This document shows positions 24,461-61,800 of a stretch of 64,000 nt of DNA, in pieces. This DNA comes from Malania oleifera (lineage: Eukaryota > Streptophyta > Magnoliopsida > Santalales > Ximeniaceae). The notes beneath the pieces are model-generated. The model had not been told where the DNA came from. It saw only the letters and a list, made by a program, of their open reading frames with translations, and ran no database searches. The position numbers were made by a program, and so were the translations under genes. The stretch is from the NCBI RefSeq assembly GCF_029873635.1, contig NC_080422.1, forward strand, positions 6,975,764 through 7,039,763. Direction: 5' to 3'. Within the stretch, counting starts at the first letter, position 1. Each line of letters starts with the position of its first letter.

Positions 24461-27400
24461 CAATCCTGGATTCAATTAGAATCCTATACAGAGAGCGAAC
24501 CCCCCCCCACCAATTGGAATTGTCTTGGCCAAATTGCTCCCATCTCTCTCATCCTCTCTTCGTCTCTCTCTCTCTCTCCTCAAGCCCACTTTCTCTCTCT
24601 AAGATTCCTCCCCATATCTCGGCCAAATCAAAAAGCGAACACCACCACAGGGTCTTAACTTCGATCCTTATCATTTTAATCGGACCATATTCGTGGTTTG
24701 GAGATCCTAACCACCACTCTAAAGTTAGGGTAAGGAAGATGAATTAAATCATTTGTTTTTAAAATTTAACCAGTTATTGGGAATATATGGGCCTAGGAAT
24801 GTTAATATGGTTATCATCCCAAGGTTGAGCTGATTAAACTAGGGTATGTGAATACAACGATTTGTGCAAACACAGTAGGCATTGCTTTAGGATCCCTACA
24901 AGCATTTCTCCAGGAATTAGGTAAAGGGGTATATTATGTCAGGTATTTTTAGAAAATTTATCGATTGAAATGTAGTATTTGATTATAAAAATTATATGTA
25001 TGATTTTTCTGGATAATCGGACATATGGAAATGATGTTTATAAATTAATGTATGTTTTTGGGAAACCATGTGTTTGAGTTGAGTAAACCCTAGACGAAGA
25101 TGTTTTAATATTATTTTCAGTAAAATATGTTTTCCCCAGGCATATGGTATAATATAGTGTAACACTCACTTATGTGCCTTGGGTATGAATATTTTTACTG
25201 TATATATATCAGCAGGCCAGAATATTTTATGATTATACAGAACATGTGCAGTTAGATAATGATTTTCAAAAAATGTTATAAACCTTACAGAAATTATGAC
25301 ATTACTCAGTATAATATGACAGATCAGCCGGCCTAGTGCCGTGACAGTTCAGTTTTAGCCGGCTTAGTGTCGCGATAGATTAGTCGGCCTAGTGCCGTGT
25401 AACACCCCGACCCCGAGGGGGGGCCTGGGATATTAACTTTTTACTACTAATTTACAGCAGAAGCAAATAAACTCAATTTTTATTAAACCAGAGCACTAAT
25501 ATTCCATATTACAATCATTTATTTCAAAAGAAGGAAAATTACACAAACATAAATATCTGAAACCATACTAATATTTCTAATCAATCTTTATTTTTCTAAT
25601 CCCCACCCGCATGCTTGCTAAGCCTGATTTCCGACATGTCCTTCAGAGTTATCTGAAATAAAATATGATTGGGGTGAGACGACGCTCAGTAAGTAAATAA
25701 GATTATTATTAGTGTGTGGCTAAAATGAGCTTTTAAAAAATTTCGTAAAACAATATTTAATAATATAACTTCAAGACTGCTTTTAGAATAAATATAAATT
25801 TAAAAATTTCTGCATAAAACTTTTGTCATCAATTTCAACAGTAAATTATTATAATCATATATTATAACTGCTAAATTAAACTTTTAACTTTAAAACTGTA
25901 AAAACATTTAATGATAAACATACATATACTTTTCGTTATACGTTTTCCTTAGATCGTCATTTAAGCACTAGAATGATCCTTTTCACGTAAACTTATACTT
26001 TTCCTTCAAATCATCAGTAACTTGTATACGTAATTAAATATGTATAAACATATATTGTAAAAACCACCCTTAGGCCTGTTTGCCGTAAGTCATGTTTACC
26101 CCCATGACTGGGTTGTGCGGTCCGAAGACTGGACTTAGCTGGCTGGCCGACCAAACTAAATCAACGTACGTAAACTTTAAGTGAGATTTTCCTTATTAAG
26201 TCCTGGACTTAAACCAGGTGTGCACTCAGGAGAAATCCACTAACATAAATAACCACTCTGTAAACAGTGTGGGTGCACTCTGATCCGTATAAACTTTAAG
26301 CTGCGGTACCGAGCATCTGTAACTTTGAACTTTCGTTGCCATAAGGGGTTTGAAAATCATCTTATTATCATTTATGCAATTTAAAATAATATCATGAAAA
26401 TCTTATCTTTACTCATATTTACATAAAAAATGTAACGTAGAAATAAACTCATGCCACACAATTTTTGTGTTAAAAAAATATATATAATTTTATTTTTGAA
26501 TAGAAAGAAATGCTGAAAATTTACCCGAGGGGATTGGAACATTTCTTAACCCAAAAATAGATGCAAGTATATTAAAGGTAGAACTGGTATAATTAAATAT
26601 GCGTAAAAATAAACTCATGGAAATTTTGTGGAACTAAGTAACATAATTAAAATTTACGTACAAAATAAGTTCGGGTATGAATTTAAAATAAAAAGAAACT
26701 AACATAATCAAAATTTACTTACCTTCTTCTTTTACCGTGTGCTACGAACACAATAGTTATCTTTAAGAAATGAGATCGGAAAAAGTGGGTGATTGAGAAT
26801 TTATTCAAAAATTCTCTCTCCACCACAAATTCTTTCACTCACTAATCCTTCTCTTCCTTGGAAAATTGTTGTGAAAAATGAAGGTTGAGAGCTCCCTATT
26901 TATAGGAAAATTTTGGGGAAGAAATAGAATTTATAAAAATGTGGGGAGATGGGTGAAATTATAATTTTTTTAAAATTAAAGAATGGGCAAGGGATGGGCA
27001 AGGTATGGGTTGAGTATGGGATGGGGATGGAGGCCATGTGGGAGTGCTTGCCACCATTCCCATTAAATAAATTTTTAATTAACTACTTACCTAATTAATT
27101 AATCAATTAGTTAATTTATTATTTTATTATTTTATTATTTTTCTTAATCATTATTGTCATTATTATTATCATTGTTATTACTTATAAACTATTTTAAGTA
27201 TTTATTTATTTTATTATTTATTTTTGAACAAGAATTAAATTTAAATTTTAAAAACTCATGTGGGCCCCACATGGTCTTGTGGGCCCCACACAACTTCGAG
27301 ACCCGAATGGATCCTACGTAACTCGAATAACTCTTATACGATTTTATGCATCCTACATAGCTTTGAGACTTGTGAAAACCTCCATACGGCTTCGGGACTT

Positions 27401-27885
27401 ATGTGGGCCCCACACAGTCTTGTGGGCCCCGCATAGGATACCTATATTATTATTATTTTATCATATATCTCTACAAATTATATCAGTTAAAACATTATTT
27501 TATGTACTTATTTACGTATATAAACAGTGTCTTGTGGCTCCGGGACGCATGTGGACCCCACATAGTATTGTGGGCCCCACATATGATACCTATATTATTA
27601 TTAGCTTATTATGTATTTCGACAAATTATGTCTGTCAAAACACTATTTTATGTATATATACTTATTTACGTGTACAAATAGTGTCTATCCTGTTTATCCT
27701 ATGAAATTCCATTTTGACCAGGCCGACCTCCAGGGAGTGACTGAGCCGCAATGGTCTCTGAGCACTCGCTAAGACAAGGTCTTTCTTAGACATCAAATAT
27801 GGAATCAAGGATCCTACAGAAAAATACTTATATATTGATATTAACTAAATGACCATTTTTATTATTTTATTATTATTGTACTTTA

Positions 27886-27937
<52 letters not shown>

Positions 27938-28397
27938 TGGGTCATCACATGCCGTGATAATTCAGCCGGTCTAATGTCGTGAAAGTTTAGCCGATTTAGT
28001 GTCGTGACAGTTCAGTCGGTTTTATGTCGTGACCAGTTATGATAACAACATATTCAAAAATTATGATATCATGAATTTTACGTAGAAATATGAAAATGAG
28101 ATATGTTATAGTTATATTATATGAAATGTACTATATGATAGTAGAACCCTGATTGATTGGTTCAGATTTAGAGCTCGGTACCGTAGCTATTATGTTAGAT
28201 TAGTGCCACCACACGTCTCAGATAGAGTGTTGGTGATTGGATAGTCGATTGAGCCCATAGGAGAGTAGTGTGCCCCCTTGGCAGTCCGGACCAGGCTAGG
28301 TAGGTTAATCGTACTTACAGACGAGTTAGTTTTAACTTAGCATGGTAGGCCAACCATTGCTAGGTCCCGCCTACAGGCTGCACAACCCAATCATGTA
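24315..28397 (+). mobile_element. Left LTR of element C, truncated, with nested solo LTR
   Basis: Starts TGTAGTCATTT after CAGAT. It carries an AT-rich zone with a TA microsatellite (24422-24458), a CT-rich leader (24535-24600), donor GGG|TAAGG (GT 24730), second donor TAG|GTAAAG (GT 24921), and a CCTAGTGCCGTGA minisatellite (25322-25397 continuing 27950-28035). The sequence matches 41233-42946 in its middle part. It ends abruptly where B sequence begins (AATCATG|TAGTTTGG). Confidence 0.8.
25398..27949 (-). mobile_element. Solo LTR of family B (2552 bp)
   Basis: On the minus strand it starts TGTGATGACCC at 27949 and ends GGGGTGTTACA at 25398. The target duplication TGCCG (25393-25397 and 27950-27954) is perfect. 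It interrupts the C minisatellite. Minus-strand donor AAG|GTAAGT (GT at 26722-26721) and acceptor TTTCAG (near 25654) frame a possible 1.07-kb intron. GGGCCCAC-containing direct repeats lie at 27262-27580. The ORF at 27258-27704 is repeat-derived. Confidence 0.9.
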
Positions 28398-28614
28398 GTT
28401 TGGCCGGCCAGCCAATTAGGTTCAATCTTCGGACCGCACAACCTAATTATGGGGGTAAACATGACTTACGATTAACAAACCTAAGGGTGGTTTTTTTTAC
28501 AGTACGTGTATATACATATTTAATTACGTATACAGAACTATTGATGAATTGAAGGAAAAATAGATGTTTATGTGAACGGGGGCATTTTTGTGCCTAAATA
28601 ATGATTTAATAAGG

Positions 28615-28668
<54 letters not shown>

Positions 28669-29011
28669 GATTGAGTATTATAGTTATAGTTTTAAAAGTT
28701 AAAAAATTCAGTTTAACAGTTATAATATATGATTATAAGATTTTACTGCTATAGATGATAGCAAAAGTTTTATACAAAAATTTTTAAATTTGCATTTATT
28801 TTTCAAAACAGTTTTGAAGTTATAGTATTAAATATTATTTTACAAAATTAAAGTATTATGAAAGCTCATTTTGGCCACACACTAATAATAATTTTATTTA
28901 CTTACTGAGCGTCGTCTCACCCCAATCATTATTTTACATTTCAGATCATTTTGAAGAGTGTACCAGAAATCTGTCATAGCAAGTGTATGGCGGGAATAGA
29001 AAGAGTAGAGT

Positions 29012-31040
29012 TGTAGCGATCTGCTTAGCTAAATATATAATAAAAATAAATAAATAAAATAGTCAACCCAAACCCATGGATAGTGGGGACACCTGTCATA
29101 CACAACGGAATCTAGGCAGCAGTAAATATAAATCACATTCATCAACCATAAATTACATAATTCCAGAGTCTAATGTATTCCCAAAGATACTATGTTTATA
29201 TACAATCTCCAAAACATAAAAATAAACCTAGGTTCTTACAACAAAAATCTTCTGATCCTAGATCAGAACTTACCCTTCTAGCAAGGAAGCTCAATTCACT
29301 CAGCGGCGGCCCTGACCCGCCGGTCTCTCTGAGTTTCTTGAAATAATTTAAATTTAGGGTGAGACACCTCTCAGTAAGGGTAGATAAATTAAAATCAGTA
29401 GTGTGGCAAATGAATATTTAATGTTGTAATACATATACCGTACATTTCATATATCATAAAACTTAAATCGTAATATGGTTAGATAAACATATAACTTCAT
29501 ATTTCCAAGTAATCATACTAATCATGTATTATCTAATATGATCTATAATATTGAAAACTACCCAGGATGTATAGCTAGCTGATGTCATGTATTACCTCCT
29601 ATGACGGGTTGTACAGCCCAAAGGCGGGACCCGACAACGGCTGACCGACCACTGCTGAGTCAAAAATGTCTATAAGTACGATGGGCCCGCCACACCCTGG
29701 TCCGGACTGCCAAGTGGACGTCCACAACTCTACATTGAAAGCCACATCGACTATCCATCTCCCACCCCCTCGTGGGGTGGTTAGCACCAATCTGATCATA
29801 GATATCTGATCTATAAGTTACGGTACCGTGCTCCTGAAACTGAACTAAACTAACATCCGAGTTCTGGTAACATATAGTACATAGACATATACTGTTTATC
29901 GTAAATCAAATAACAGCCTTTTCCGAATCCTACATTAACATAATAATTACGGCCTCGCACCGAAAACATGAATAAATGCGGCCTTGCACTGAATAACATG
30001 AGTAATTACGGCTTTGCGCCGACCATATCATATATTTTGAAATCATAATTTACTGTGTTTATCAAGTTATTCTTGAAAATATTTGTAAACATGTTTTATT
30101 TTGTAAATCTAACTTAACATGGTATAGTATATATATAAAATAATATTCATGTCACACGAATTGAATGAAACCATATATTCTATTCTGAAATCACATTTCC
30201 TGTACAATTGCAGTATTTTCTCAATCTTACATTTTCTCAATTATACTCATATATAATCACATGCTTTTTGAAAATTATTCTACTATTAAATAATTATAAT
30301 TTCAAAGCAAAATAACTACTTTAATTTATCCCCTTACCTGACAACTGAAAAGCCCCTCTATAATACTGGTCTTACACTCGTAGAAAACCCAGTACCCAGA
30401 AAATGATAACTCTCAGAACTAAACGTCAGTATTTAATCGAGTACATCATTTCCTTCAACTGTGGAAAGACCAAATTTGGCACAAAAAGTCTTACCTCAAT
30501 TCAGGGATGAATTTCAACTCACTTCAACCAACGATCCGTTTCGGAAGATTTGGAGAGAACTTCCCTAGGAGCATCGTGGTAGCCTCAAATCGTCGATCCG
30601 ATGAACGATGGAGCTAAAATCAAATAGAGAGGAGAGAGAAACCATAGGGAGAGAGAAAGAGAGAGATTTCTAATTTTTTGCGTTAAAAGTCTTAGTTTTT
30701 GCTATTTATAGGACCGAATTCGTCGACAAGACACGTCACCTCATCGACGTGTCCTGTAGAAAGTTCGTCGACAAACCTACCCCCTCGTCGACGAATTTCA
30801 AACTTTCAAAAATTCTCTCTCGGTATCTTCTCGTCAACGAAACTTGTCTTCGTCGACAAGACCCTCTTGTACCCTAGTCGATGAATCCCCTGTGTTCGTC
30901 GACGAGGACCTGATAAATTTTCTTGGTCATTGCATTCCAAAGTGCAACGTTCGTCGACGAAGTCAGCTATCTCCTTTTGTACTGTTTCCATTTTCCTCCC
31001 TCTTTATTATTTAAATATCATTATTTTTCGGGTCATTACA
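29012..31040 (-). mobile_element. Solo LTR of family A (2029 bp)
   Basis: On the minus strand it starts TGTAATGACCC at 31040 and ends GATCGCTACA at 29012. Perfect target duplication AGAGT (29007-29011, 31041-31045). Palindrome array 30715-30965, TATA box at 30702-30711, donor GAG|GTAAGAC (GT at 30494-30493), donor CAG|GTAAGG (near 30337), acceptor-like TTTCAAG (near 29337). Short GCC-rich repeats at 29945-30025 take the minisatellite position. Confidence 0.92.
30702..30965 (-). promoter_or_regulatory. LTR promoter: palindrome array plus TATA
   Basis: Eight or more GTCGAC palindromes between 30718 and 30962, followed on the minus strand by CTATAAATAG (30702-30711). Same arrangement as in the plus-strand copies. 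Confidence 0.65.
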
Positions 31041-31243
31041 AGAGTAGAATAAAAAAAATTAGCATAATATAATTTAGAATATGTTTGTATATTTTATAAG
31101 TTTAGAAATTTTCATTTTAATAGTTGAGACATATATTTGTAATAAAATTAAATAGTGCTTTGGTAATAAAAATAATTTAGATTTATTTGTGTCTGCTGAA
31201 AAATTTATATGTAGGAACCCATTCAAGTCCGGGTCCTTACAAT

Positions 31244-31254
31244 TGGTATCAGAG
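31244..31254 (+). other. Primer-binding site (tRNA-iMet type)
   Basis: TGGTATCAGAG, two bases after the LTR end TTACA. It is complementary to the 3' end of plant initiator tRNA-Met, as in many gypsy elements. Confidence 0.85.
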
Positions 31255-31789
31255 AATAGGATATAGGTTTTGCATACTCTAACATATAAATTTTACCAGA
31301 GCTTAGGCATAAAACATGATTTGGGTAGGATTAGGTAGTTTAGAATATTTATTTTAGTTTGTTCTACGTTAATAATAGATTTATTATTTTAAAATAACAT
31401 TTAACCATTGTTTAATAGTGGATCTTAAAGATAGTAACATTAAAGGAAATTAGATTAACGTGAAAGCTCCCAAGAACGGGTAACAATCTTATATTCTCTA
31501 AGAAAATTGATAGTATTATTAAAGACACGTTAATTAAGCTAAATATGTTATTTATGTTTGTAGAAACACGTACCCATATTGATGACTCATAATTAATTGT
31601 TAGATCATATGCATTAATAATTTAAAATTTTCATATATATAAATATAATAATATAATAATATCCAAGATTTATTAATTTTTCGTTGTTATTATTTTCACT
31701 AAAAATATAATAAGTAGCACATTAGACCTTATTAGGTTTGGAGGTGCTACACATACAAATAGATATAAATAAACGGTTTATTCTGAAAT

Positions 31790-32180
31790 TTGAATTTACC
31801 CAAAATTTCTTTATATGTGTAAGTTGGATATGAATATGTATTTTTACGTTGCATATTCAGTTCTTATTAAAATATTCAAGCTTAATTTAGGAATATATAT
31901 TTTGACAAAATCTTTAATTTTAATTTTGTATTAGTTTATAAGGAATTAAATACAATTTAAATGTTACTATATTATATTTAAATTCAAAAAAAAAATCCCC
32001 TAGGATGTGCAAGTTAAATATGAATATATATATATATATATATACACATTGCATATTCAATTCCCATCAAGTATCCAAGTTTGATTTAGGAGTACAAATT
32101 TTGACGGAATCTTTAATTTTTATTTGTATAAATTTATAAAAGTAAAAAAAAAAAATCTCTTAGCATGTGCAAGTTAAATA

Positions 32181-32228
<48 letters not shown>

Positions 32229-32370
32229 AATTGAATATTTAATTCACATAAAGTATCAAAGTTTGATTTAGGAGTACAAATTTTGACGAAATCTTTAATT
32301 TTTATTTTGTATAAATTTATAAAAGTAAATACAACTTAAATTTTACTATATTATAAATAAATAAAAATTC
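31790..32370 (+). repeat. AT-rich tandem repeat, three copies of 170-200 bp
   Basis: Each copy contains TGTGCAAGTTAAATATGAATA, a TA tract, GTTTGATTTAGGAGTACAAA and TTTTGACGAAATCTTTAATT, or variants. Copies run at about 31790-31990, 32000-32155 and 32160-32370. The second and third are closest. Confidence 0.8.
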
Positions 32371-32539
32371 ATTAATGAAAGCAATATAAAAATTAACTAA
32401 TCTTCTTCAAATAACTAACCAATGTCAAATCATCAATTAGTCAAACATACCCAATATATATTTGATCTAGTATAATAATAATAATAATAGTAATAATAAT
32501 ATTGGAATATAAATAAATAAATAAATATATATATATATA

Positions 32540-32735
32540 GGGTACTCTCGTAGTGAAAAAAAAAAGAAGAAGCCTCATAGGTAGAAATCATCGGCTATAG
32601 CTCACTTTCCCCTGAACTAAGGCCAGGGCATGAGACCACTTGGGTATAGTGGGGATTCGAACCCGCGATCATATGGATGCACGACCAGTTTCTTACCACT
32701 AAGCCACCCACCCAAGTGGTGACCTAAGGATGAGA
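32540..32735 (-). mobile_element. tRNA-derived SINE
   Basis: On the minus strand there is an internal RNA polymerase III promoter: A box TGGCTTAGTGGT (plus 32695-32706) and B box GGTTCGAATCC (plus 32653-32663). A non-tRNA body follows, with a T-rich 3' end near 32560. It does not fold into a clean cloverleaf (mismatched T stem, incomplete acceptor), so it is not a functional tRNA gene. Ends are approximate. Confidence 0.75.
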
Positions 32736-32797
32736 TTAATTATAGTAAAAACATTAATAAAGATGTAGAAACATAAACAAAACCTTAAGTCCGCAAA

Positions 32798-32963
32798 TTT
32801 TGCAAAACGCGTCACTCAGTATCCATGACATGCGTCGCTCTCTCTCGATTCTCGCAACACATGTCGCTCTCCCTCAATTTTTGCAAAAACGCGTCGCTCG
32901 ATATCCATGACACGCGTCGCTCTCTCTCGATTCTTGCGGCACATGTCGTTGTCTCTCAATTTT
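32798..32963 (+). repeat. 80-bp tandem duplication
   Basis: Two copies starting TTTTGCAAAA(A)CGCGTC at 32798 and about 32878. Each contains ATCCATGACA(C)GCGTCGCTC and ACATGTCG. It sits immediately upstream of the G-box/TATA of the WOX-like frame. Confidence 0.85.
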
Positions 32964-32968
32964 AATAA

Positions 32969-32990
32969 CACGTGACTATTCCCCTATAAA
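32969..32990 (+). promoter_or_regulatory. G-box and TATA box upstream of WOX-like frame
   Basis: CACGTG at 32969-32974 and TATAAA at 32985-32990, about 120 bp before the ATG at 33110. Spacing fits a core promoter with a leader of roughly 90 nt. The assignment rests on motif and position only. Confidence 0.45.
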
Positions 32991-33109
32991 AAGGGTTTGC
33001 CTCCTCGAACTCTATGTATCACAGCTTTCTAGCATCTTGAATAACCACATTTCGGTTTGCAGAGATTAGCTCTTCCCAACTTTTCTCTTGATTGTATCAT
33101 TACTCAAAA

Positions 33110-33841
33110 ATGTTGCCAAATCACCTAACTCCCCTAGCTGCTGAGAGCAGCACCAGATCGCTAATCCAAAGATAGAAATCTAGCAAGGCATAGCTAGAAA
33201 TTTTAAAGGAGACCTTTCGCAACAGTCAAGGGGAACTCCCTTCTGTGGAGTGGGCTATCTTGCTTGCAGCACGACTTCAATGGTATGGTCCAATCGAGCA
33301 AAAAAATGTACGCTTTTGGTTTGAGAACGGTAGGCGTAAGCGGGGATTAGTTGAAGAAGCCACTATTTTAACTATTGGCCCCCTAATTATCCATCTTACC
33401 TCCTCCGCCACTACTACCCCGAGTAGTGCCCCTACCATTTTCCCAACCACTTGTACTCTCATCCCTATCGATAATATTCTGTCTATGAAACTTACAATTA
33501 ACATCACACCAATGAGCCATACCCCTTACAATGGCAGTATCGCAGTCACCACACTAAGGGTTTGTGATAATGCTGGTCTACTCCACCATTGCAAAGAGAT
33601 TCAAAACACGTTGAGACTCATGTACAGGCCACCGATGGCTTGTTATGAGCATCCCCATCAAAGGCCACAAGGGGAAGAGGGCAACTCTTCCTCCCTTACC
33701 GAACGAACGGGCGTTCTCTCCCTTTTTTCGACCCAAGCAAGCGACATTACAATAGGTCAACTTTGCCAAGAAATAACCCAGGTAGTTAGCAGTGACACCG
33801 TTAGCACTTCGATAAATGTTGACATTGAGCTAAGGCTCTAA
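33110..33841 (+). pseudogene. WUSCHEL-related homeobox (WOX)-like pseudogene
   Basis: From ATG 33110 the frame runs 243 codons to TAA 33841 and is broken by two TAG codons (33173-33175, 33191-33193). The stops fall at the start of a homeodomain; the second replaces the Gln usually found before the first helix. What follows has the WOX signature YGPIEQKNV and a third helix with WFEN (W48, F49 and N51 kept; usual Q50 is E). No intron or frameshift interrupts the remaining 215 codons. Near the C terminus VLSLFSTQ weakly resembles the WUS box, and the last residues IELRL resemble an EAR repressor motif, which would fit the WUS clade. In known plants these proteins are nuclear regulators of stem-cell niches. 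Here the frame lies inside a retrotransposon. It may be a captured or retroposed copy, now dead unless the stops are read through. Confidence 0.7.
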
Positions 33842-33901
33842 AGGTCAGATTTCATTTCATTTTGTTTTATATATATATTTTTAATTTATAGGACATGTAT
33901 A

Positions 33902-33946
<45 letters not shown>

Positions 33947-34160
33947 ATTATCCTTTTCCACATCTTTTAAATTTTTTTTCCATTTCAACCCCTATTAAAT
34001 CGACGATTCAAATTTTAGTTCCCAAAATAAAATATTTCACCAAATTGACCCTTAATCTATTTTAAGACTTAATAAAATCGTTCATCAATTTACTTTTTCA
34101 AATAGCGCAACCAATTATATAGTACTCATTTTAAATTAGCAAATTTCAAGGACAAAATTT

Positions 34161-34177
34161 TTATAAGGACAGGAGAA
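34161..34177 (+). other. Polypurine tract of element B
   Basis: TTATAAGGACAGGAGAA directly abuts the 3' LTR start TGTGATGATCC, as expected for the plus-strand primer site of an LTR retrotransposon. Confidence 0.75.
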
Positions 34178-34506
34178 TGTGATGATCCAAAAATATATAT
34201 ATATATACGATTGAGGCATAATAAAAATAAGAATAATAATAATAAAATAACAAAAATGCTTATTAAGTTAATATCAATACAGAAGTATTCTTCTATAGGA
34301 TCTTTGATTCCATGTTTGATGCTTAAGAAAGACTTTGTCTTAGCGAGTGTTCGAAGACCATTGCGGCTTAGTCGCTCCCTCGAAGTCGGCCTAGTCAAAA
34401 TTGAATTTCATAGGATAAACAACATAGACACTATTTGTACACGTAAATAAGCACATATACATAAAATAGTGTTTTAATAGACATAATTTGTAAAAATATA
34501 TGGTAA

Positions 34507-34556
<50 letters not shown>

Positions 34557-36411
34557 AGGTATCCTATGTGGGGCCCACATGAGTCCCGAAGTTTTGTGGG
34601 GTCCACATGAGTCCCCAAGTTATGTAAGACTCATAAAATCATGTGAAGAATAATGGAGTTACGTAGGACCCACTTGAGTCTCGAAGTTGTGTGGGGCCCA
34701 CATGAGTTTTCGAAATTCGAACTTAATTCCTTTTAAAAAAAAAGTACTAAAACATTGTTTAAAAATAATAACAATGATAATAATAATTTTTAAAAAAAAA
34801 ATTAATTGACTCATTAATTAAAAATTAATTAAATTGGAGTGGTGACAAGCACTCCCACATGACCTTCATCCCTATCACATACCTAACCCATGCCTAACCC
34901 ATCCCATGCCCATTCTTTAATTTAAAAAAAATTATAATTTTTACCCATCTCCTCATACTTTTACAAATTTAATTTTCTTCCATAAAATTTTTCTATAAAT
35001 AGGAAGCTCTCAACATTCATTTTTCACAAAAAAATTCCATAGGAAGAGAAGGATTAGTGAGTGAAAGAATTAGTGGTGGAGGGAGACTTTTTGCTATAAT
35101 TAAAATTCTCACTCACCCACTCTTCCTGATATCATTTTTTAAAAGATATTCGTGGTGATCGTAGCACAAGATTAAGTAAAATGTAAGTAAATTTGATTAT
35201 GTTATACTTTTATTAAAATTCGTACCTGAATTTATTTGTAAGTAAGTTTTGATTATGTTAGATTTTTATTCAAATTTATACCCGAGTTTATTAGTAAATA
35301 AATTTGATTATGTTATTATTTTATTTAAAATTCATACCCGAATTTATTTGTAAGTAAATTTTGATTATGTTAGTTAGTTTCATAAAATTCTCTTGAGTTT
35401 TTTTTTACGCATATTTAATTATACTGGGTTTATCTTTAATATACTTGTATTTATTTTTCAGTTAAGAAATATTCTAAACCCCTCAGGTATTTTATATTAT
35501 TAATTTCTATTTAAGAAAATATTTTTAACACGAAAATTGTGTAACATGAGTTTATTTATATGTTGCATATTTTACGAAAATATGAGCAAAAATAAGATTA
35601 TCATAATATTATTTTAATTGTATAAATTATATAATAAAAATATTTTTAAAACCCCTTATGGCTCAGATGATGCGGAAAATTACAAATGTTCGGTATCGCA
35701 GCTTAAAGTTTAAACGGATCAGAGTGCACGCACGCTATTTGTAGAGTGGTTTTATATGGTAGTAGATATCACACCCCGAACCCGCAGGTGGGTCCCAGGT
35801 ATGAATAAAGTAACCTAACCTATCTCTGTATCAATTTATACATACATGATACGATACAATAAAAGGGTCCGACCCCGTGGGATACACAGATGCCCTATAC
35901 ACATACACATACAAATCCATATTCATCAGTTACGCAGCGGAAAATGTTTCATCTATCTACATGCTTTACCATACCAAAGTTTGTACAAAGTTAGGATACA
36001 CATACCCAACAATAGTAAAGTTTACATTCTCATAAATACCGTACATACTCCGGGTGTCTACAAAACTATCACGACAACTCGGTTACAAAAACTCGTACCT
36101 AAGCAGGTATTCACAGCAGCTAAAGACACCCCCGCTTTCGAATGCTAGGATGCTAAATACGGTTACTTGATGGACCTGAAAACATTGTACGTACATTCGG
36201 AGTGAAACACCTCTCAGTACGGAAGAAAGCAGGTTATATCAGTGTGTGACATACCAGTGTTATTTTACATACTTCATAATACTATAAAATAAGATACAGT
36301 TCAAAACATTTCCATACAGTTTCATACAATCACATACAGTTCCAGTATTTTCAAAAAACCATTCTAGTACATACGATACCCAAAACATACGGTCAGTGTC
36401 ATCACACTAGT

Positions 36412-36690
36412 ACGCAACTACACAAGGTCACCTAAGTCTCACAGCGATTACATTGCTACATACGCAACTACGCTGCGACGACCGAGGCCCAATAGTGATT
36501 ACATTGCTCCATACACAACTACACAAGGTCACCTAAGTCTCACAACGATTACATTGCTACATACGGTGTAGAACACACCCATTGGTGACCAGTCGGAACA
36601 TACTACGCTGCGACGACAGAGGCCCACAATGATTACATTGCTCCATACGGTGTAGAACACACCCATTGGTGACCAGTCGGAACATACTAG
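36412..36690 (-). repeat. Tandem repeats in D LTR
   Basis: Alternating units containing GATTACATTGCTACATACG, CTACGCTGCGACGAC and GTGTAGAACACACCCATTGG. They occupy the LTR position where the other families carry minisatellites. Confidence 0.85.
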
Positions 36691-37477
36691 TGATATTTCA
36701 CACCCCGGATATAAAGCCGGCCACTCTCGCCCACGGTAGTTAAACGGTACATGGCACAGCGTACGGTAATTAGCCGCCACTAGCCGATTTCACAAAACCT
36801 AGAATCATTTTGGAACTCACGTTCCTATACATTTCAGCGTACGGTAATTAGCCGCCACTAGCTGTTTTACAAATACCTAGAACAAATACATACAACCATA
36901 CATACCACACTTATTTGGTTTACGGTAAATCATATCGTTTTCCATTTCAAGTATACAGTTTATGCAAATATGGATAACAATCATCTCAATAATACAGTTT
37001 AAACAAAACAAATGGTTTTCCAAACAAAGTAGAGATGATACCCGAAATCCCCAAATTTTTTCAAAAATTGTAACCCAAAAATCCTGTATTTTACCCGATA
37101 GATTTCCCCAAATAAGTTACCAAAACATACATACGATCGTAGCCTACAAGCTTACCGATCCTGATTTCAAAAATAAACTGATATAAACAGAATCCCCTTA
37201 CCTTAACCCGAATTTCAACTACGAACTCTATGGTCCCCAAAACTACGAACCGAGACTCCAAAACCTACAAGCCATAATACAATACATGCTTACAATTCGT
37301 ACTACTACTACACATATACTGAATTAGAAACGAAAATTGAGCCTTACCTCGATTTTAGCCGGAAACCTGAAATCGCTCGGAACGAAATTTCGATTCGCTA
37401 GAAACGTAGAGAATCCTTCCTTGATCCTCGTAGTAACGTCCGATTTATGAATCAGGCGACGAACGACGAAGAAATTA

Positions 37478-37521
<44 letters not shown>

Positions 37522-37604
37522 CGAGTTCTAGAGAGAGAGGGAGACAATTTCCAAATCTTAGCCAAGAAGCAATCCCAAAATATCTTTTAAAGGCCTTTGA
37601 CTCG

Positions 37605-37800
37605 GGTGGATTCGACGACGAATTGGCGTCGTCATCAACGAGTCCGCCATTAGCTTCGTCGACGAGACGGTGGCCTCATCAACGACTCAGATATTTCCAA
37701 TTCCTCTGAGCCTCTCGGCATTCCCTCGTCGATGAGCCTCTAAATTTCGTCAACGAGGTGCCTTCAACCTTCGTCGACGAATGATAGCCTCGTCGACGAA
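37605..37800 (-). promoter_or_regulatory. Palindrome array of D LTR
   Basis: About eight GTCGAC palindromes and CpG-decayed variants (for example CGTCGACGAATG and CATCAACGA). The first part of the array is repeated in the 5' LTR stub at 40230-40310. Confidence 0.6.
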
Positions 37801-37962
37801 GTCTGCCCAATTACTTTTTTACCCTTCTTTCAACATTAACCCACATACTACGGTTCGGGTTCTTACAACCTCCCCTCCTTACAAAAATTTTGTCTTCGAA
37901 ATTTGCGAACTCTTATTACGAACACATTCATACTACTACATACATACACACTCTGAAGTGGA

Positions 37963-38310
37963 ACGGTGGCCATTTATACGCAGCCCCATCACGATACATA
38001 CATACATACTCTATAGAATATGGGGGCCATTTATACGTAACCCCATTACGATACATATATACATACTCTAGGGAATATGACGGCCATTTATATGCAGCCC
38101 CGTTACAATACATACATACATACTCTAGGGAATACGACGGCCGTTTATACGCAGCCCCATTACAATACATACATACATACTCTAGGGAATACGATGGCCA
38201 TTTATACACAGCCCCGTTACAATACATTCATACATACTCTAGGGAATACGACGGTCATTTATACGCAGCCCCATTACGATACATACATACATACTCTCCC
38301 TCACTTATGG
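37963..38310 (-). repeat. 57-bp tandem repeat x6 in 3' non-coding part of D
   Basis: Units contain GGCCATTTATACGCAGCCCC and ATACATACATACATACTCTA. The array lies between the end of pol and the polypurine tract. The long ORFs over it on both strands are repeat translations. Confidence 0.93.
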
Positions 38311-38525
38311 TGGAGGAATACCGTGGTTATATACATACGTGGCCTCGGGAGTTCACATTACAACAGGACTCTCCCAAAGACTAACCAACAAAATACAATA
38401 CAATAACAGAGGATTACATATATACTCATACCACACTACTATCCAACTACTACTTAGAACAACTGCAGATACTTCCGGCGTATTTCTGTTTCCAGTTCCC
38501 AAGAAGCTTCCTCAACCTCGTGGTT

Positions 38526-40190
38526 TCACCACAATACCTTCACCAACAGTATTTCTTTGGTACGAAGCTTCTGAACTCTATGGTCCAAAATCTGAACAGG
38601 TATTTCCTCATACGCTAAAGTATCCTCAATTTCCAACTCATCATAACTAATAACATGATATGGATCCAACAAGTACTTTCTCAGCATGGATACGTGAAAC
38701 ACATCATGGACCCTTGAGGGTGTTGGGGGTAGTGCAATTCTGTAGGCTACCGAACTCACTCGCTCAATAATCTCGAATAGTTCGATATACCTCGGGCCCA
38801 ACTTGCATTTCCTTCCGAATCTCATCACTCCCTTCATCGGAGCGATTCTAAGGAATACTTTACCCCTACCTTGAACTCCAACTCATGGCGGTGAACATCC
38901 GTTTAACTCTTCTACCGACTCTGAGCCGAACTAATCCTCTCCCAGATCAAACCTACCTTCTCAGACACTTGCTGCACGAGTTTAGGTTCTAAAACTTAAC
39001 GTTCACCGACCTCATCCCAATACAAAGGAGATCGAAACCTCTGATTATACAAAGCCTTGAACGGTGCCATCCCTATACTAGCCTAGAAGCTATTGTTATA
39101 GGAAAACTCCACTAGTGGCAGAAACTGAATCTAACTACCACCGAAGTCTAATACACAAGGCCGTAACATATCCTCCAAGATCTGTATCGTCCTCTCCGAT
39201 TGTCCATCAGTCTGGGGGTGGAACGCTGTACTGAAAGTAAGCTTCATCCCTAGTGCTCCCTGCAAGCTCTTCCAAAATCGAGAAGTAAACCTCGGATCTC
39301 GATCTGACACAATGGACATTGGTACTCCGTGCATTCTTACTATCTCATGCACATATAGGTCCACTAGTTTACTCAAAGGGTAGCTAACCTTCGTCAGTAC
39401 AAAATGAGCGGATTTCGTCAACCAGTCTACGATTACCCAAATGGCATTCTGCCTGTGAAGCGCTGATGGCAATCCAGTAACAAAGTCCATGGAAATGTGC
39501 TCCCATTTTCACACTGGAATAGGCAAGGGTTGCAATGGCCCTGTCGGCCTCTGATGTTTAGCCTTCACCTGTTGACACGCCAGACACTGGTCCACAAACC
39601 GAGAAATATCCCTCTTCATACCACTCCACCAGAAGGACTCGCGCAAATCCCGATACATCTTCGTACTACTCGAATGTACTGTATACAAAGAACGATGCGC
39701 TTCCTCCAGAATCGTCCTTTTGATTTCATTGTCGCTTGGAACACACAACCTGGTCCCAAAGCTCAACACACCTTTGTCAGAGATGTTAAAATCCACAGCC
39801 AAACCCCGCTGCACTTTCTCCACAATCTTAGCTAACTCTGCATCACCAACTTACGTGACTTTAATACGCTCCAACAAGGTCGGCTAGATTACCAAGCTAG
39901 AAATGAAAGCTTGATGATCACCACACACCAACTCCACGCCAAGGCTTTCCAGATCCCGTCTGACATAATACTGAGCTACAACTATAGTTACTATTGCATG
40001 CTCTGACTTCCGACTCAACGCATCTGCTACCACATTAGCATTTCCTGGGTGATAACTGATCGTGCAATCGTAGTCCTTAATCAATTTTAGCCACCGCCTT
40101 TACCTCATATTCAGTTCTTTCTGCGTGAAAAAGTACCTGAGGCTTTTGTGATCAGTGAAAATCTCACACTGAACACTGTACAGGTAGTGT
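38526..40190 (-). pseudogene. Ty3/gypsy pol fragment: RNase H, integrase, C-terminal domain
   Basis: Read on the minus strand. 40190-39890: RNase H end with [11 protein letters not shown] and [10 protein letters not shown], broken by a stop. 39823-39509: integrase zinc-binding region with His-His and CLAC Cys pair. 39490-39131: integrase core beginning MDFVTGLP, with the Asp residues of [10 protein letters not shown] and SDRDPRF and the Glu of SERTIQ. 38837-38526: C-terminal region with VAYRIALPP and VHDVFHVSMLRKY, typical of Tekay/Del-type chromoviruses. The fragments lie in different frames with stops between them, so no polyprotein can be made. At 40192 it joins LTR U3 sequence directly, which marks a deletion. 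Confidence 0.9.
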
Positions 40191-40192
40191 CG

Positions 40193-40373
40193 CCATATAT
40201 TTCCAATTCCTCTGAGCCTCTCGGCATTCCCTCGTCGACGAGCCTCTAAATTTCGTCGATGAGGAGCCTTCAACCTTCGTCGACGAATGATAGCCTTGTC
40301 AACGAAGTCTGCCCAATTACCTTTTTACCCATCTTTCAACATTAACCCACATACTACGGTTCGGGTTCTTACA
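40193..40373 (-). mobile_element. 5' LTR stub of element D
   Basis: The first 181 bp of the LTR, nearly the same as 37690-37867 with about ten differences. It is cut off at ATATTTCC and fused to pol. Confidence 0.85.
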
Positions 40374-41232
40374 GTAGATTTCTCCTGAGTGCACACCTGG
40401 GTCGGACTAGAGTTTAATAGGGAAAATCTCACTCAATAATGACATACATTGATTTAGTTTGACCGGCCAGCCAATTAAGTCCAGTCTTCGGACCGCACAA
40501 CTCAATCATGGGAGTAAACATGACTTATGACTAAGGGTGTTTTTTTTACAGTACGTGTATATACATATTTAATTACGTATACATAACTATTGATGAATTG
40601 AAGGAAAAATATATGTTTATGTGAACGGGGGCATTTTTGTACCTAGATAATAATTTAATAAGGAAAAGTATATATATATATATATATACATGATTGAGTA
40701 TTATAGTTATAGTTTTAAAAGTTAAAAAATTCAGTTTAGTAGTTATAGTATATGATTATAAGATTTTACTTCTATAGATGATAGCAAAAGTTTTATATAG
40801 AAAAATTTTTAAATTTGCATTTATTTTTAAAACAGTTTTAAAGTTATAGTATTAAATATTATTTTACAAAATTAAAGTATTATGAAAGCTCATTTTGGCC
40901 ACACACTAATAATAATCTTATTTACTTACTGAGTGTCGTCTCACCCCAATCATTATTTTACATTTCAAATTATTTTGAAGAATGTACCAGAAATCTGGCG
41001 TAACGAGTGCATGGGCAGGAATAGAAAGAGCAGAGTAGAATAAAAAAAATTAACATAATACAATTTAGAATGTGTTTGTATATTTTAGAAATTTAGAAAT
41101 TTTCATTTTAATAGTTGGGACATATATTGGTAATAAAGCTGATTAGTGCTTTGGTAATAAAAATAATTTAGATTTATTTGCGTCCACTAAAAAATTTATA
41201 TGTAGGAACCCATTCGAGTTCGGGTCCTTACA

Positions 41233-42946
41233 TCCAGGGGTTGAACTAATTAAACTAGGGTATGTGAATACAGGGATTTTTGCAAACGCAACAATCTCTG
41301 CTTTAGGATCCCTGTAGGCATTTCTCCAGGAATCAGATAAGGGAATAGATTATGTCAGGTATTTTTAGAAAATTTACTGTTTAAAATGCAGTATTTGATT
41401 ATAGAAATTATATGTATGATTCTTCTGGATAATCAGGCATATGGAAATGATGTTTATAAATTAATGTATGTTTTTGGGAAACCAGGTGGTTGAGTTGAGT
41501 AAACCCTAGAAGAAGATGTTTTAATATTATTTTTAGTAAAATATGTTTTTCCCAAGAAGATAGTATAATATAGTGTAACACTCACTTGTGTGGCATGAGT
41601 ACGAATATTTTTATTATATATATCAGCATGCCAAAATATTTTATGATTATATAGAACATGTGTAATTAGATAATGATTTTTAGAAAATGTTATAAACCTT
41701 ACAAAAATTATAATATTGCTCAATGTAATATGATAGATCAACCGGCCTAGTGTCGTAACAGTTCAGCTTCAGCATGCTTAGTGTTGTGATAGATCAGCCA
41801 ACCTAGTGCCGTAACAATTCAACCAACCCAGTGTTGTGACAGTTCAGCCAGCCTAGTGCCGTGACAGTTCAGCCAGCTTTATATCGTGATCAGTTATGAT
41901 ATAACAACATATTAAAAAATTATGATATGATAGATTTTACGCAGAAATATGAAAATGAGATATGTTACAATTATATTATATGAAATATACTATATGATAG
42001 TAGAACCCTAATTGATTGGTTCAGATTTAGAGCACGGTACCATAGCTATTATGTCAGATTAGTGTTACCACATGTCTCAAATAGAGTGTTGGTGATTGGA
42101 TAGTCGATTGAGGCCAGAGGAGAGTAGTGTGCCCCCCTGACAGTCCGAACCAGGCTAGGTAGGCTAATCGTACTTACAGACGAGTCAGTTTTGACTTAAC
42201 GTGGTAGGCCAACCATTGTTAGGTCCCACCTAAGGGCTGCACAACCAAATCATGTGGGGGTAAAACATGATATCAGCTAACTATCCATCTAGGGGAAAAT
42301 TTCAGTATTATACATATATACCAAATGATTTACATGTATATAGAAATTTATTATGACACAGTATGCTTATGTTGAAAATTTGATTTTACCACACTTATAT
42401 AAGTATGAATACAGATTTACCTGATTTATCAAATACAGTTAATTATGTATAGTATATGTTTATAATATAATAGAACGCATGTTGCCACACATTGATGATA
42501 ATCTATCTCATCTTACTGAGAGGTATCTCACCCAATAATTTAAACATTTCAGGAAACCCAGACAGTCATGTAAAGCGAGCTCTGAGGTAGAGGAGGCCTT
42601 GGTACTATAGTATCAGGGTAAGTGTTTTGAGTTGGGGATATGTTTGTGTAATCCCTAGGATATGTTATGGATTTTTGGAGACATGTATGTATATTTATGG
42701 AGATAGTAGAACTCTAGTATTGAATGTAAGGTTCAGGCATATTATGTTTTCCGCTCTATGAATAGTATGTATTTAAGAACAGGAATACCCTCGGTATCCC
42801 ACTTTGGGTCCAGGTTGACATTATAGATATTATAATTGTTACTATCGGAGCATATTTTTAGCAAAATTCATAGGATCGTTACAGTTTGATATCAAAGTAG
42901 ATTATTATTTTTAAATTTATAGCAGTATAATTTTTGGATCGCTACA
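41233..42946 (+). mobile_element. Right LTR portion of element C
   Basis: Begins mid-LTR (GGTTGAACTAATTAAACTAG), where B was inserted. It parallels 24820-25397 and 27950-28397: CCTAGTG(C)CGT minisatellite 41735-41890, inverted-repeat block near 42516, acceptor TTTCAG near 42551. An LTR-like end GATCGTTACA at 42881 is followed by a PBS-like GTTTGATATCAAAG. After 65 bp there is a second end, GGATCGCTACA, at the target duplication. Confidence 0.75.
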
Positions 42947-53742: not shown

Positions 53743-54738
53743 TCAGAGAGCAACGAGAGGATCCGACCCGAATATATCGCCGATGTCCTGGAAGTAGTCG
53801 TCCACGGGCCACGTCGTCAACCCGAACCCTTGATCCTGGCCCGGATCGACGTACAGACCGCAGCATTCTTCGCCGAAAACGTTGCCGTCACGTAGACTCG
53901 TCTCGTCGAGGAGATCCGGAACGAAATTTTGAACCTCGAAAATATCATTCGGCAAAAGCGTATCGAGCGGCCAGTAATCAGAGAAATGAGATGATACGCA
54001 AGCATCTTCCGCGATATCATGGATTTCGGCGATATCTCGAATGGGCTCAATATCACGGGATTCTGTAACGGTTTCCGGTACGGATCCCTGCGATTCGGCC
54101 TCTTCGTTGGAAGGAGAGCGGAAGCGGAGGACGGAAGTCGGAGAGCAGAGGCTGTGGTGAGATTCTTCGCCGGAGTAATAGCCGGAGCTAGTCATCGGAG
54201 CATTCGTTGGCGGCGGCGCTGAGAAGTTCGTCTGCGCGTCGGGACCACGCAGCTGAATGGCTGCGTTGTCGTAAACCATGGCAGCCTCCTCCGCCGTATC
54301 GTAGGTGCCGAGCCAGAGGCGCACACCTCTCAATGGATCTCTGATCTCCGCCGCCCATTTTCCCCACGGCCTTTGCCGGACCCCGCGGAACTTCTTGCAG
54401 GATGGCTGCCTCACCAGCCGGCGAGTAGCCGACGACTCCTTCCTCCTGCGGGTCGTCGCCGGCGGCTTCCTCCAGACGCCGTTGCCTCCTCCGTTTTCTC
54501 TGAAACAGGAATCGATCCTGATCTCGTTGACGAACTTCTTGACCCTTCGTCGCTCGGTTTCCTCGTCGCTGGAGGAGTCTGTTGCGTCGCCGTCGGTGAC
54601 GGATATCCGGACGACTCTCGGTCCTCCAGCATTCATCTCGGACAGGTTTTTCATCCCCGGCCGTCTGGCGATAGTGGTGCACTCTCGGTGCTCACTGTAT
54701 TTGACTGGAGAGAAAATAGCAGAGCTTCGTCGGTCCAT
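53743..54738 (-). CDS. CRF: AP2/ERF transcription factor, cytokinin response factor (CRF) class
   Basis: Single-exon gene of 331 residues. Residues 11-60 form the CRF domain (PVKYSEH, then [19 protein letters not shown]), followed by a basic RRRVKKF segment. The AP2/ERF DNA-binding domain spans about 117-173, with [17 protein letters not shown] and the Ala and Asp that mark the ERF type. SPTSVLRF at 199-206 is the putative MAP-kinase site typical of CRFs. The C-terminal third is acidic and probably activating. Known CRFs act in the nucleus downstream of cytokinin two-component signalling and in development and stress; size and layout agree. The ATG at 54736-54738 is chosen because the CRF domain begins ten residues later. 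It is the only intact gene in the window and sits in a repeat-poor island. GC-rich third positions contrast with the AT-rich surroundings. Paralogue number within the clade cannot be decided. Confidence 0.96.
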
Positions 54739-58870: not shown

Positions 58871-61800
58871 ATAGACCCAGGTAGTGGCAGTGCTCATGTG
58901 AGTGGAAGTGAGGGTGCAGGGCCCTTAGGTGCAGGTGGAGCTGATTTAGATGCAGTATTATGCAGTGTGACTCAGCAGGTCATGACTGAGATCGCATGGA
59001 GCACCAGAGAGCAGGGAAGCCCGTCTGCAGGTCATGGGTAAACGATAGAGAAATTCACCAAAATGAACCCTCCGGCATTTTCAGGAGGAGTTGATCCTGC
59101 AATAGCTAAAAACTGGATGTAAGAGATAGAGAAAGTATTAGCAGTGCTGCAGTGCACGAAGGAATAGAGGGTCTTATTTGCCACTTATAAACTAAAAAGA
59201 GAGGCTAAAAGATGGTGGACTGCGATAAAATTATTAGAGGAACAGAGGGTAGTGCTTATAACTATGACTTGGTGCCAGTTTAGAGAATTGTTCTTTGAGA
59301 GATATTTTTCAGCCACTATCAGGGAGGCCAAACTTGAGGAATTCTTAAACTTGAAATAGGGACAACAAACAGTCCAACAATACGCGGCGAGGTTCATAGA
59401 ATTATCTCGCTTTGCCCCATATATCGTTCCCAATGAGGCAATGAAGGCGAGATAGTTTGAAAGAGGTTTGAGGCGAGAAATTTATAAGTAGGTAGCAGTA
59501 TTGAAAGTGCAGGACTTTTTCGAGTTGGTAAACAGAGCTGCTGTGGCTGAGACTGGTGAGCGGATGGGTGTAGAGGAGCAGGGATAAAAGAAAAGGTCCA
59601 CACCTTCAAGCTTTCAGCAGGGATCTAGTCGAAACCAGTAGAGGAGAGGGAATTATAGCAGAGGACAAAGGCAGGAGACTGGGGGCCATGAGATTCAGGG
59701 AGTATAGACCTACCATGTTTGTCAGACATATGGAAAGAGACACTTAGGAGTGTGTCGAGCAAGAAGAGGCGTCTACTATCGTTGCGGTGTACTGGGGCAT
59801 TTGGTATGAGATTGTCCTGCACCACCTGGTACTGCACTTGCTCCCATACCACACCGAGGATGTTATCAAGTGCCTCATGGAGGCCAACAAAGGAATGTAA
59901 CCTTGACGAAGGTTTATGCTTTGACGCAAGGAGACGCAGAGGGCGCAAACGACGTCGTGATAGGTACCTTTACTACTTTATCATATCAAACTATTATTTT
60001 ATTTGATACAAGTGCCACCCACTCTTTTATGTTTGCGAGGTATGTTAAATTGGCTGGTGTTGAGACATAGTTATTAGATGTTGAACTTTCAATAACAACA
60101 CCGACAGGGCTAGTGGTTAGGTGTCGAAGGGTGTTCAGGGGCTATTCAGTAGAAATTTAGGGGAGAGTATTACTAGCTGACTTAATTGTATTAGATTTGT
60201 ATGGATTCGATATAATACTGGGTATGTACTGGCTAGCTACTAACCATGCTACTATTGACTGTCATCTGAAAGAGATGATTTTCAAACCACCAGGAAAGCC
60301 AGAATTCAGATTTGTGGGATCGCGGGTGCAATCCCCACCTCATTTAGTATCAGCCATGCAAGCAAAAAGACTACTTTTGGACAGATGTCAGGGGTTTATG
60401 ACTTATGTAAAAGAGGTGAGAAAAAATGAATTGAAGCTTGTCAGTACACTAATGGTTAAGAAGTTTCCAAACGTTTTTCCAGAAGAACTTCCTGGATTGC
60501 CTACTAACCGTGAAATAGATTTTACTATCGACTTACTCCCAAGGACGGCGTCAATCTCTGAAACTCCTTACCAAATGGCTCCAGCAGAATTGAGAGAATT
60601 AAAAGATCAGTTGCAAAATTTATTGAATAAAGGGTTTATTAGACCTAGTGTATCGCCTTTAGGACCTCCAATTTTATTTATGAGGAAGAAGGATGGGTCT
60701 ATGAGGATGTGTATATATTACAAAGAAATAAACAAAGTAACAATTAAGAACATGTATTCTCTACCCTATATAGATGACTTATTTGATCAGCTTTAGGGTA
60801 CACGGGTCTATTCCAAGATCAACCTTAGGTCAGGTTATCATTAGGTGAAAGTTAAAACTGAAGATATTTCAAAGAAAGCTTTCAGGACCAAGTATAGGCA
60901 TTATGAATTTCTAATTATGCCATTTGGTCTGACGAATTCGATGAATAGAATCTTTCATCAGTATTTAAACCAGTTTGTTATGGTTTTCATTTATGACATA
61001 CTGCTTTACTCGAGGAGTTTTGAGGAGCATGAGATGCACCTAAGGCTAGTAGTTCAGATGCTCAAGGAAAAGAAATTGTATGCCAAGTTTAGCAAATGTG
61101 AATTATTGTTGGTTGTCTCAGCTCGGAGTATATAGTCTAGAGGGGGGTGAATAGACTCTTTTTACGGAATACGTATTTTTCTACAAAATGAAAACTCTTG
61201 GCAAGATACAAGAAATTATATCGCAATATAAATATAAATCATGCACAAGATATAAAATAAAGAGTGTAAAGGAGAGAAAGAATAATATCGGTATTTTTAT
61301 GTGGTTCAGCACCAAGCCTACGTCTACGCCTTAGCACCAGACCAAGGATTCCACAATCCATTATAATCGCTCCTTTCGCAGCAGAGCAAGCCTTACAAAT
61401 TCAGGAACAAATCCCTACCACTCATAAAGAGCCTTTACCGATTCGGTTCACAAAGAACCTTTAACAAGAAAATGGAAGATTGTAAAGAATGCTCCTTACA
61501 ATGAGCAAATATGATTTACAACTCAAACCCCACACTATTCTCTCAAGAATTGAATTAAACACAATAAGTAAGCAAGAGAGAATGAGCACATGTAATGGAG
61601 AACTAATATGCAATGCGCTAGGTTTTATATAAAATGATGTTTTTTACTAACAATGATCAAAGACCTTCAAAACCATGTTAATACAAGTCGAATAGCTTGT
61701 ATTTATAGCCCAAGAGCCTTAGGAGCCATTAACTAGCCTTTGGGGGGGAAGAAAAAATATTTTATTTGGTAAAATAGCTGTTTTTCACCCGTTAGCGTCA

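Follow-up and report, generated by a model that had tools for sequence, protein, structure and literature searches.

A high-copy LTR retrotransposon family of Malania oleifera carries a WUSCHEL-type homeobox gene in place of its own genes

Introduction

LARDs and TRIMs are non-autonomous families of long terminal repeat (LTR) retrotransposons that have LTRs, a primer-binding site (PBS) and a polypurine tract (PPT) without gag-pol, are moved in trans and are non-coding. In this study, a 64,000-nucleotide stretch of the Malania oleifera genome (NC_080422.1, positions 6,975,764 to 7,039,763 of the forward strand; hereafter, the window) was analysed. It holds one copy of an LTR element that resembles LARDs and TRIMs in having LTRs, a PBS and a PPT without gag-pol and differs from them in that its family codes for a homeodomain protein of the WUSCHEL (WUS)-related WOX type.

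Host coding sequence inside an LTR element, on the sense strand, has been described for maize Bs1 and for further LTR elements that have transduced pieces of host genes (PMC13317346, PMC7264820), the former report also naming TRIMs. Bs1 as described there holds segments of three genes, none of full length, whereas the Malania element holds one near-complete-looking frame with three WUS landmarks and is present in hundreds of copies. A Ty3/Gypsy lineage of Phalaenopsis with a frame for an AlkB N6-methyladenosine (m6A) demethylase (PMC9289625) is comparable in that a plant LTR lineage has fixed and amplified a host-type protein domain. Those elements are described as ca. 25 kb long with the domain as an additional frame, whereas no frame besides the WOX one was seen in the Malania element; its domain is that of a stem-cell transcription factor instead of a demethylase, and its protein is a predicted one. 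The same report gives Aegilops tauschii Gypsy consensus sequences with a B3 domain, another case of LTR elements holding the DNA-binding domain of a plant transcription factor; these elements were found via a reverse transcriptase marker and hence bear reverse transcriptase, and no homeodomain is named in the section on the domain screen. No plant LTR family carrying a WOX gene or a homeodomain was found in the literature searched (CC-licensed full texts in PubMed Central). Gene capture by LTR elements is already known; as far as searched, a high-copy family with a stem-cell regulator as its only visible gene is new.

Results

Copies of the element and their transposition

The family consists of hundreds of copies that carry a WUSCHEL-type gene in place of their own genes, and in many recent copies this gene can still be read. 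When the longest open piece of the window frame (33245-33841, 198 amino acids) was searched against the genome, 926 first-look candidates were obtained; the best 150 were scored and all matched, 45 of them (window included) having no stop inside the match. When the frame of a young copy was used, 122 of the best 150 of 1,027 first-look candidates lacked a stop, and recurrent frame lengths of 236, 253 and 235 amino acids marked sets of near-identical copies; both lists favour intact copies, and their no-stop counts are not unbiased rates. A 1 kb LTR query hit 3,457 first-look places in the genome, of which the best 40 were scored.

Twenty regions of ca. 10 kb each were fetched and compared together with the window (21 sequences). 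One paired upstream/downstream block of 2.0-2.5 kb was found in nine of them (L013, L016, L017, L019, L021, L022, L024, L025 and L026), while LTR pairing in the remaining sequences was seen as shorter pieces, or not at all in four (L009, L015, L023 and L027). The family LTR, 2.4 kb long, runs from TGTGATGACC to CTTACA, i.e. it starts with TG and ends with CA. The PBS core TGGTATCAGAG was exact in five of the 21 sequences, a 22-mer of LTR end plus PBS was present with at most six mismatches in 13, and the LTR start was preceded by a purine tract in 16. Target-site duplications were read by eye in ten copies: an exact 5-bp repeat was present in five (L017, L019, L021, L022 and L025), a repeat with one mismatch in two (L024 and L026), and the ends were not located in three (L011, L012 and L016). 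Because of the five exact duplications, we conclude that LTR-WOX-LTR units transposed as units.

The position of the frame was examined at the junction between PPT and 3′ LTR. A 38-mer across this junction occurred at 225 places in the genome with at most one mismatch and at none when read backwards. Among 100 listed exact junctions, 76 had a listed frame upstream on the same strand, 69 of them at 261-289 bp; the other seven matched only in the homeodomain, at 725-740 bp, a distance that puts the frame in the same place. All ten of the other 24 junctions that were fetched ended in a WOX C-terminus at the same place, and the idea that junctions without a listed frame belong to gag-pol partners was dropped. 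Thus, 86 of 86 checked junctions carried the frame, at a fixed place ca. 270 bp before the PPT and 3′ LTR, across dispersed copies. The first-pass annotation, made from the letters of the window, had proposed a WUS-clade gene in a non-autonomous gypsy-like element; the shared frame position in independent copies, LTR pairs, target-site duplications and a continuous frame support that proposal.

Four pairs of neighbouring WOX frames lay 5,589-5,766 bp apart on one strand (C6:84607005-84613283, C7:96280977-96287432, C1:68242943-68249267 and C4:124242635-124249023). They look like arrays sharing LTRs.

Identity of the encoded protein

Taken alone, the window piece gave weak matches (Pfam Homeodomain, E = 0.18; WUSCHEL structure 6ry3, E = 0.033). 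The WOX-type homeodomain claimed in the first-pass annotation was settled by sibling copies: Pfam PF00046 scored above the cut-off in three of four full sibling frames scanned, and a profile of 12 element sequences matched the structures of WUSCHEL (7.2e-12) and STENOFOLIA (2.3e-11), the next homeodomain being at 0.31. The element homeodomain is thus closer to WOX than to other homeodomains. In a protein search, the single homologue among 609 candidates was the uncharacterized LOC131144967 of M. oleifera, and none was found outside Malania; with the profile, LOC131144967 alone was returned at E up to 10 among 6,134 candidates. This entry, an element copy listed among the host's uncharacterized proteins, has an N-terminus of unrelated sequence ahead of the homeodomain, and its predicted structure was uninformative (mean pLDDT 29.5).

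WOX homeodomains have larger loops than canonical ones, W at the docking position, and N and R in the recognition helix, a pattern that the element shares. It aligned without gaps to host WUS (L029) over 60 residues, while six non-WUS host WOX loci (L037-L042) were one residue shorter. Profile scores were 57.8 bits for host WUS, 58.5 bits for a WUS-like duplicate (L030) and 49.3 bits for the best non-WUS locus (L037). In WUSCHEL, bases are read by R38, N90 and R94, W39 docks, and Y54 is an inserted residue (PMC7203112). The element shares with host and Arabidopsis WUSCHEL the homeodomain length, R38, W39, N90 and the extra helix-1 residue in the Y54 slot; position 94 is R in young copies and K in most old copies. 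It differs in that 25 of 60 homeodomain residues are identical to host WUS, Q89 is replaced by E and Y86 by F, the middle region is unrecognisable and the gene sits within a mobile element. The stretches YGPIEQKNV, WFEN, LSLF and C-terminal IELRL noticed in the window are present and have counterparts in siblings, whose C-terminal part reads GVLSLFPTQ and then VELRL or VDLRL, in the order of the WUS-box and the EAR motif; these motifs are divergent and were assigned by eye.

The element frame is continuous over 230-243 codons, whereas the homeodomain and WUS-box of host WUS lie in different frames ca. 1.4 kb apart with stops between (exon ends unmapped). Donor introns thus appear to be absent, as would be the case for a retroposed gene. 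In a tree of 60 homeodomain columns, the element formed a single long branch (1.09) apart from all WOX genes, and the donor was not placed. The donor may well have been WUS itself, as opposed to a different gene of its clade.

In addition to L029 (C1:43737672), which appears to be the WUS gene, the genome holds seven WUS-like homeodomain copies with 72-78% identity to Arabidopsis WUS. Five are clustered over ca. 30 kb at C1:44656763-44686209 (L030, L031, L034, L035 and L036), and the others are at C13:48345875 (L032) and C435:36142 (L033); a stop lies inside the match in three of the seven.

Relation to gag-pol elements

The interior of the window copy has no gag-pol frame among frames of at least 60 amino acids. 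The exact 27-mer before its PPT occurs 1,104 times in the genome, and three of three sampled places without a listed WOX frame were not WOX upstream. Since the 27-mer is common to non-WOX places, the WOX element shares its 3′ end with other LTR elements. The three places had a peptide like EASWELEEHIRQKCPQLF ca. 200 bp upstream, in another frame, which we take to be the end of a gypsy chromovirus pol. The 27-mer was also considered as a pol tail peptide; this was dropped, as the pol-like end is in another frame with stops between at all three sampled places. The shared 27-mer and the pol-end motif in three neighbours suggest a Ty3/gypsy lineage.

Age of the insertions

LTR divergence (Kimura two-parameter) was 0.081-0.100 in eight complete old copies, and this narrow range suggests that they stem from one burst. 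The LTRs of the young copy L043 differ at 9 of 713 sites (98.7% identical). At a substitution rate of 1.3e-8 per year, the old copies would be 3-4 million years (My) old and L043 0.5 My. The rate applied to Malania elsewhere (PMC11417964), 2.5e-8 per generation at 10 years for each, gives ages of 16-20 My and 2.6 My, respectively.

Promoter-like sequences and leader

A TATA-like box, CTATAAATAGG, is present in the LTR near 34994. In 18 of 24 copies, an internal TATA box stood 125 or 126 bp before the ATG, and in 21 of 24 it was within -120 to -140. Of the G-box and TATA motifs that had been noticed upstream of the window frame, the TATA box is thus kept in siblings, whereas the G-box was found beside it in only 3 of 24 copies and was rejected as a family feature. 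In L043, a leader minisatellite of 81 bp in 4.0 copies (1881-2202) lies directly upstream of the internal TATA box, and it could represent promoter repeats.

The window copy

The window copy is a member of the older burst (Table 1). The first-pass annotation had described a tRNA-Met-type PBS, a PPT, an interior without gag-pol and a 243-codon frame. The first three were found as described: the PBS core, which we take to be of the initiator tRNA-Met type, directly follows the LTR end; a purine-rich tract directly precedes the LTR start; and, apart from the WOX frame, no sense frame reaches 60 amino acids in the interior, including the ca. 1.9 kb before it. The 243-codon frame is also present, but it is not open, being interrupted by TAG at 33173-33175 and 33191-33193. 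The 3′ LTR is split by a 4.6 kb insertion (35771-40372). Because of the two stops in the frame and the breaks in both LTRs, the window copy is dead.

Table 1. Layout of the WOX element copy in the window (positions within the window).
Feature	Position	Strand	Basis
5′ LTR, first piece of the surviving last third (LTR start missing)	28393..29011	+	blastn against LTRs of sibling copies L022/L024
Solo LTR of another family, nested, splitting the 5′ LTR; flanking repeat AGAGT	29013..31041	-	gap in LTR match; ends and repeat read by eye
5′ LTR, last piece, CTTACA end	31041..31241	+	sequence reading and LTR match
PBS core TGGTATCAGAG	31244..31254	+	directly after LTR end CTTACA
Leader minisatellite, GCGTCGCTC...GATATCC...TCTCTCTCGATTC units, upstream of internal TATA box; boundaries approximate	32790..32965	+	
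Internal TATA box TATAAAAA, 125 bp before ATG	32985..32992	+	kept in siblings
WUSCHEL-type homeodomain frame, 243 codons and TAA; TAG at codons 22 and 28	33110..33841	+	
Homeodomain, codons 20-79	33167..33346	+	alignment to WUSCHEL 6ry3, profile positions 19-79
WUS-box-like stretch GVLSLFSTQ (host WUS: ETLPLFPMH)	33710..33736	+	motif assigned by eye
C-terminal IELRL, EAR-like (host WUS: SLELSL)	33824..33838	+	motif assigned by eye
3′ piece common to other LTR elements of the genome, and PPT	34143..34177	+	exact 27-mer 1,104 times in the genome
3′ LTR, first two thirds, start TGTGATGATCC at 34178	34178..35770	+	LTR match
3′ LTR, last third, CTTACA end	40373..41232	+	LTR match

Several further features were seen around this copy. 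A minus-strand LTR of the WOX element family at 25451-27950, with no adjoining WOX interior, is nested in repeats upstream. The sequence directly 3′ of the 3′ LTR (41231-42255) has a second copy, 86-92% identical, just upstream of the truncated 5′ LTR (24815-25398 and 27950-28396). Within the 4.6 kb insertion, 57-bp tandem repeats at 37963-38354 give a 164-amino-acid repetitive frame. At 53743-54738 (minus strand), a frame of 331 amino acids with an AP2/ERF domain (Pfam PF00847, E = 1.7e-14) is probably a host gene. A retroviral-type protease remnant of another LTR element, having no LTR in common with the WOX element, lies at 60197-60796 (plus strand; RVP_2, E = 3.9e-6).

Selection on the frame

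The homeodomain differs from that of host WUS at 83 of 180 nucleotides. On this deep branch, which takes in changes in WUS as well, 15.9 ± 2.6 identical residues would be expected under neutral drift, and 25 were seen (P = 0.0005). The chance of no stop under the same drift was 0.07. A set of 29 frames, from which L019 and L021, each with its frame split between two pieces, and the partial L047 were left out, held 33 stops, 23 of them C to T. Common stops recurred independently on the tree, and those shared by descent were found only in the tandem neighbours L010 and L011, whose second frames are each other's neighbour and were used once. All frame gaps between young and old copies were multiples of 3; only two subfamily-fixed gaps count, because five old copies were picked for being open. 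Deep-branch residues are kept, and nearly every stop arose separately on an end branch; an open frame thus seems to have had an advantage in the long term.

The ratio of non-synonymous to synonymous change (dN/dS, method NG86) was 0.26-0.89 in 28 young pairs and had a median of 0.53 in 168 young-old pairs. The null used observed transition bias and CpG/CHG weights of our choice, and its neutral means were 0.68-0.75 rather than 1. Six of 14 tested pairs fell below the 5% line of the null, and the rest lay within it. We claim selection less strongly than the raw dN/dS table, with its look of purifying selection, would suggest, because the neutral mean is near 0.7 and the test of fixed against private changes was flat.

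Discussion

We propose that a WUSCHEL-like cDNA was captured by a non-autonomous Ty3/gypsy-type LTR family, replaced gag-pol and has been moved in trans, and we give this explanation a probability of roughly 0.8. An mRNA copy of a WUSCHEL-like gene would have been taken up by a Ty3/gypsy-type element, e.g. by template switching, with loss of gag-pol. Because LTRs, PBS and PPT are kept, the element could still be transcribed, with the LTR, the internal TATA box or both as promoter, and gag-pol relatives would supply the enzymes that copy it in trans. The LTR-WOX-LTR unit would have spread at least twice, in an older burst and then in younger sets with mostly open frames. The encoded protein would bind DNA and recruit a co-repressor via its WUS-box/EAR-like end. 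That the frame was selected for during most of the element's history is a claim towards which we lean slightly. A bolder suggestion, that the element encodes a working, selected WUS-type factor that would aid its own spread, via the LTR/leader promoter or via stem-cell identity in the source cells of the germ line, is tentative and rather unlikely.

Some results weigh against this proposal as a whole or against its functional extension. No gag-pol partner bearing this LTR was found, and the counts of stop-free frames come from the lists, noted above, that favour intact copies. For the WUS-binding motifs TTAATSS, TGAATGA and CACGTG, the LTR part of one copy and the leader of another gave no excess compared with 200 shuffles. 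Only six of the 14 dN/dS pairs, which are not independent, were under the 5% line of the null. Between young and old subfamilies, fixed changes (20 non-synonymous to 11 synonymous) did not differ from private ones (215 to 104; p = 0.84), so that no amino-acid constraint was seen, and shared/private contrasts were all non-significant (smallest p = 0.09). The identity of the frame (0.83-0.85) was no higher than that of its flanks (0.83-0.89).

These last points are what would be expected if the WUS-derived frame were passive cargo, hitchhiking with a protein useless to the element, young copies being open because their source copies were. The absence of constraint between subfamilies, divergence equal to that of the flanks and dN/dS within the null for eight of 14 pairs favour this view, to which we allow a considerable chance, somewhat short of even. 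Against it count the deep-branch homeodomain residues above the neutral expectation, the kept base-reading residues, the six pairs below the 5% line, and the finding that no stop among the 29 frames was inherited by dispersed copies.

An origin from another homeodomain gene or another organism, the likeness to WUS being due to chance or to common WOX ancestry only, would suit the long branch to all WOX genes with a tree that gives no placement, the unrecognisable middle region and the lack of a homologue outside Malania in the protein search. We regard it as improbable, however: WOX structures were the only significant matches, by about ten orders of magnitude, the gapless WUS length exceeds that of six non-WUS host WOX loci by one residue, host WUS outscored the best non-WUS locus, and the WUS-box-like and ELRL-like stretches stand in WUS order. 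The alternative named in the first-pass annotation, a one-off WOX retrocopy inserted in an already gutted element, is compatible with the window copy taken alone but is refuted by the at least 150 scored copies per query, the fixed distance to the PPT and the copies' own target-site duplications.

Gene capture by plant LTR elements has usually been described in terms of gene fragments, and it is very unusual for a mobile element to carry a stem-cell regulator gene. In the present family, which numbers hundreds of copies, some recently inserted and many with an open frame, a master developmental regulator appears to be the sole gene. These findings suggest that such elements escape surveys based on a reverse transcriptase marker and that they may confound the number of homeobox genes counted in the Malania genome. 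They also make testable the question of whether a mobile element can gain from control of the stem cells that yield the germ line. If the encoded factor does work for the element, the retrotransposon would have a stem-cell regulator of its own, and its many open copies could perturb or feed the WUS network of the host.

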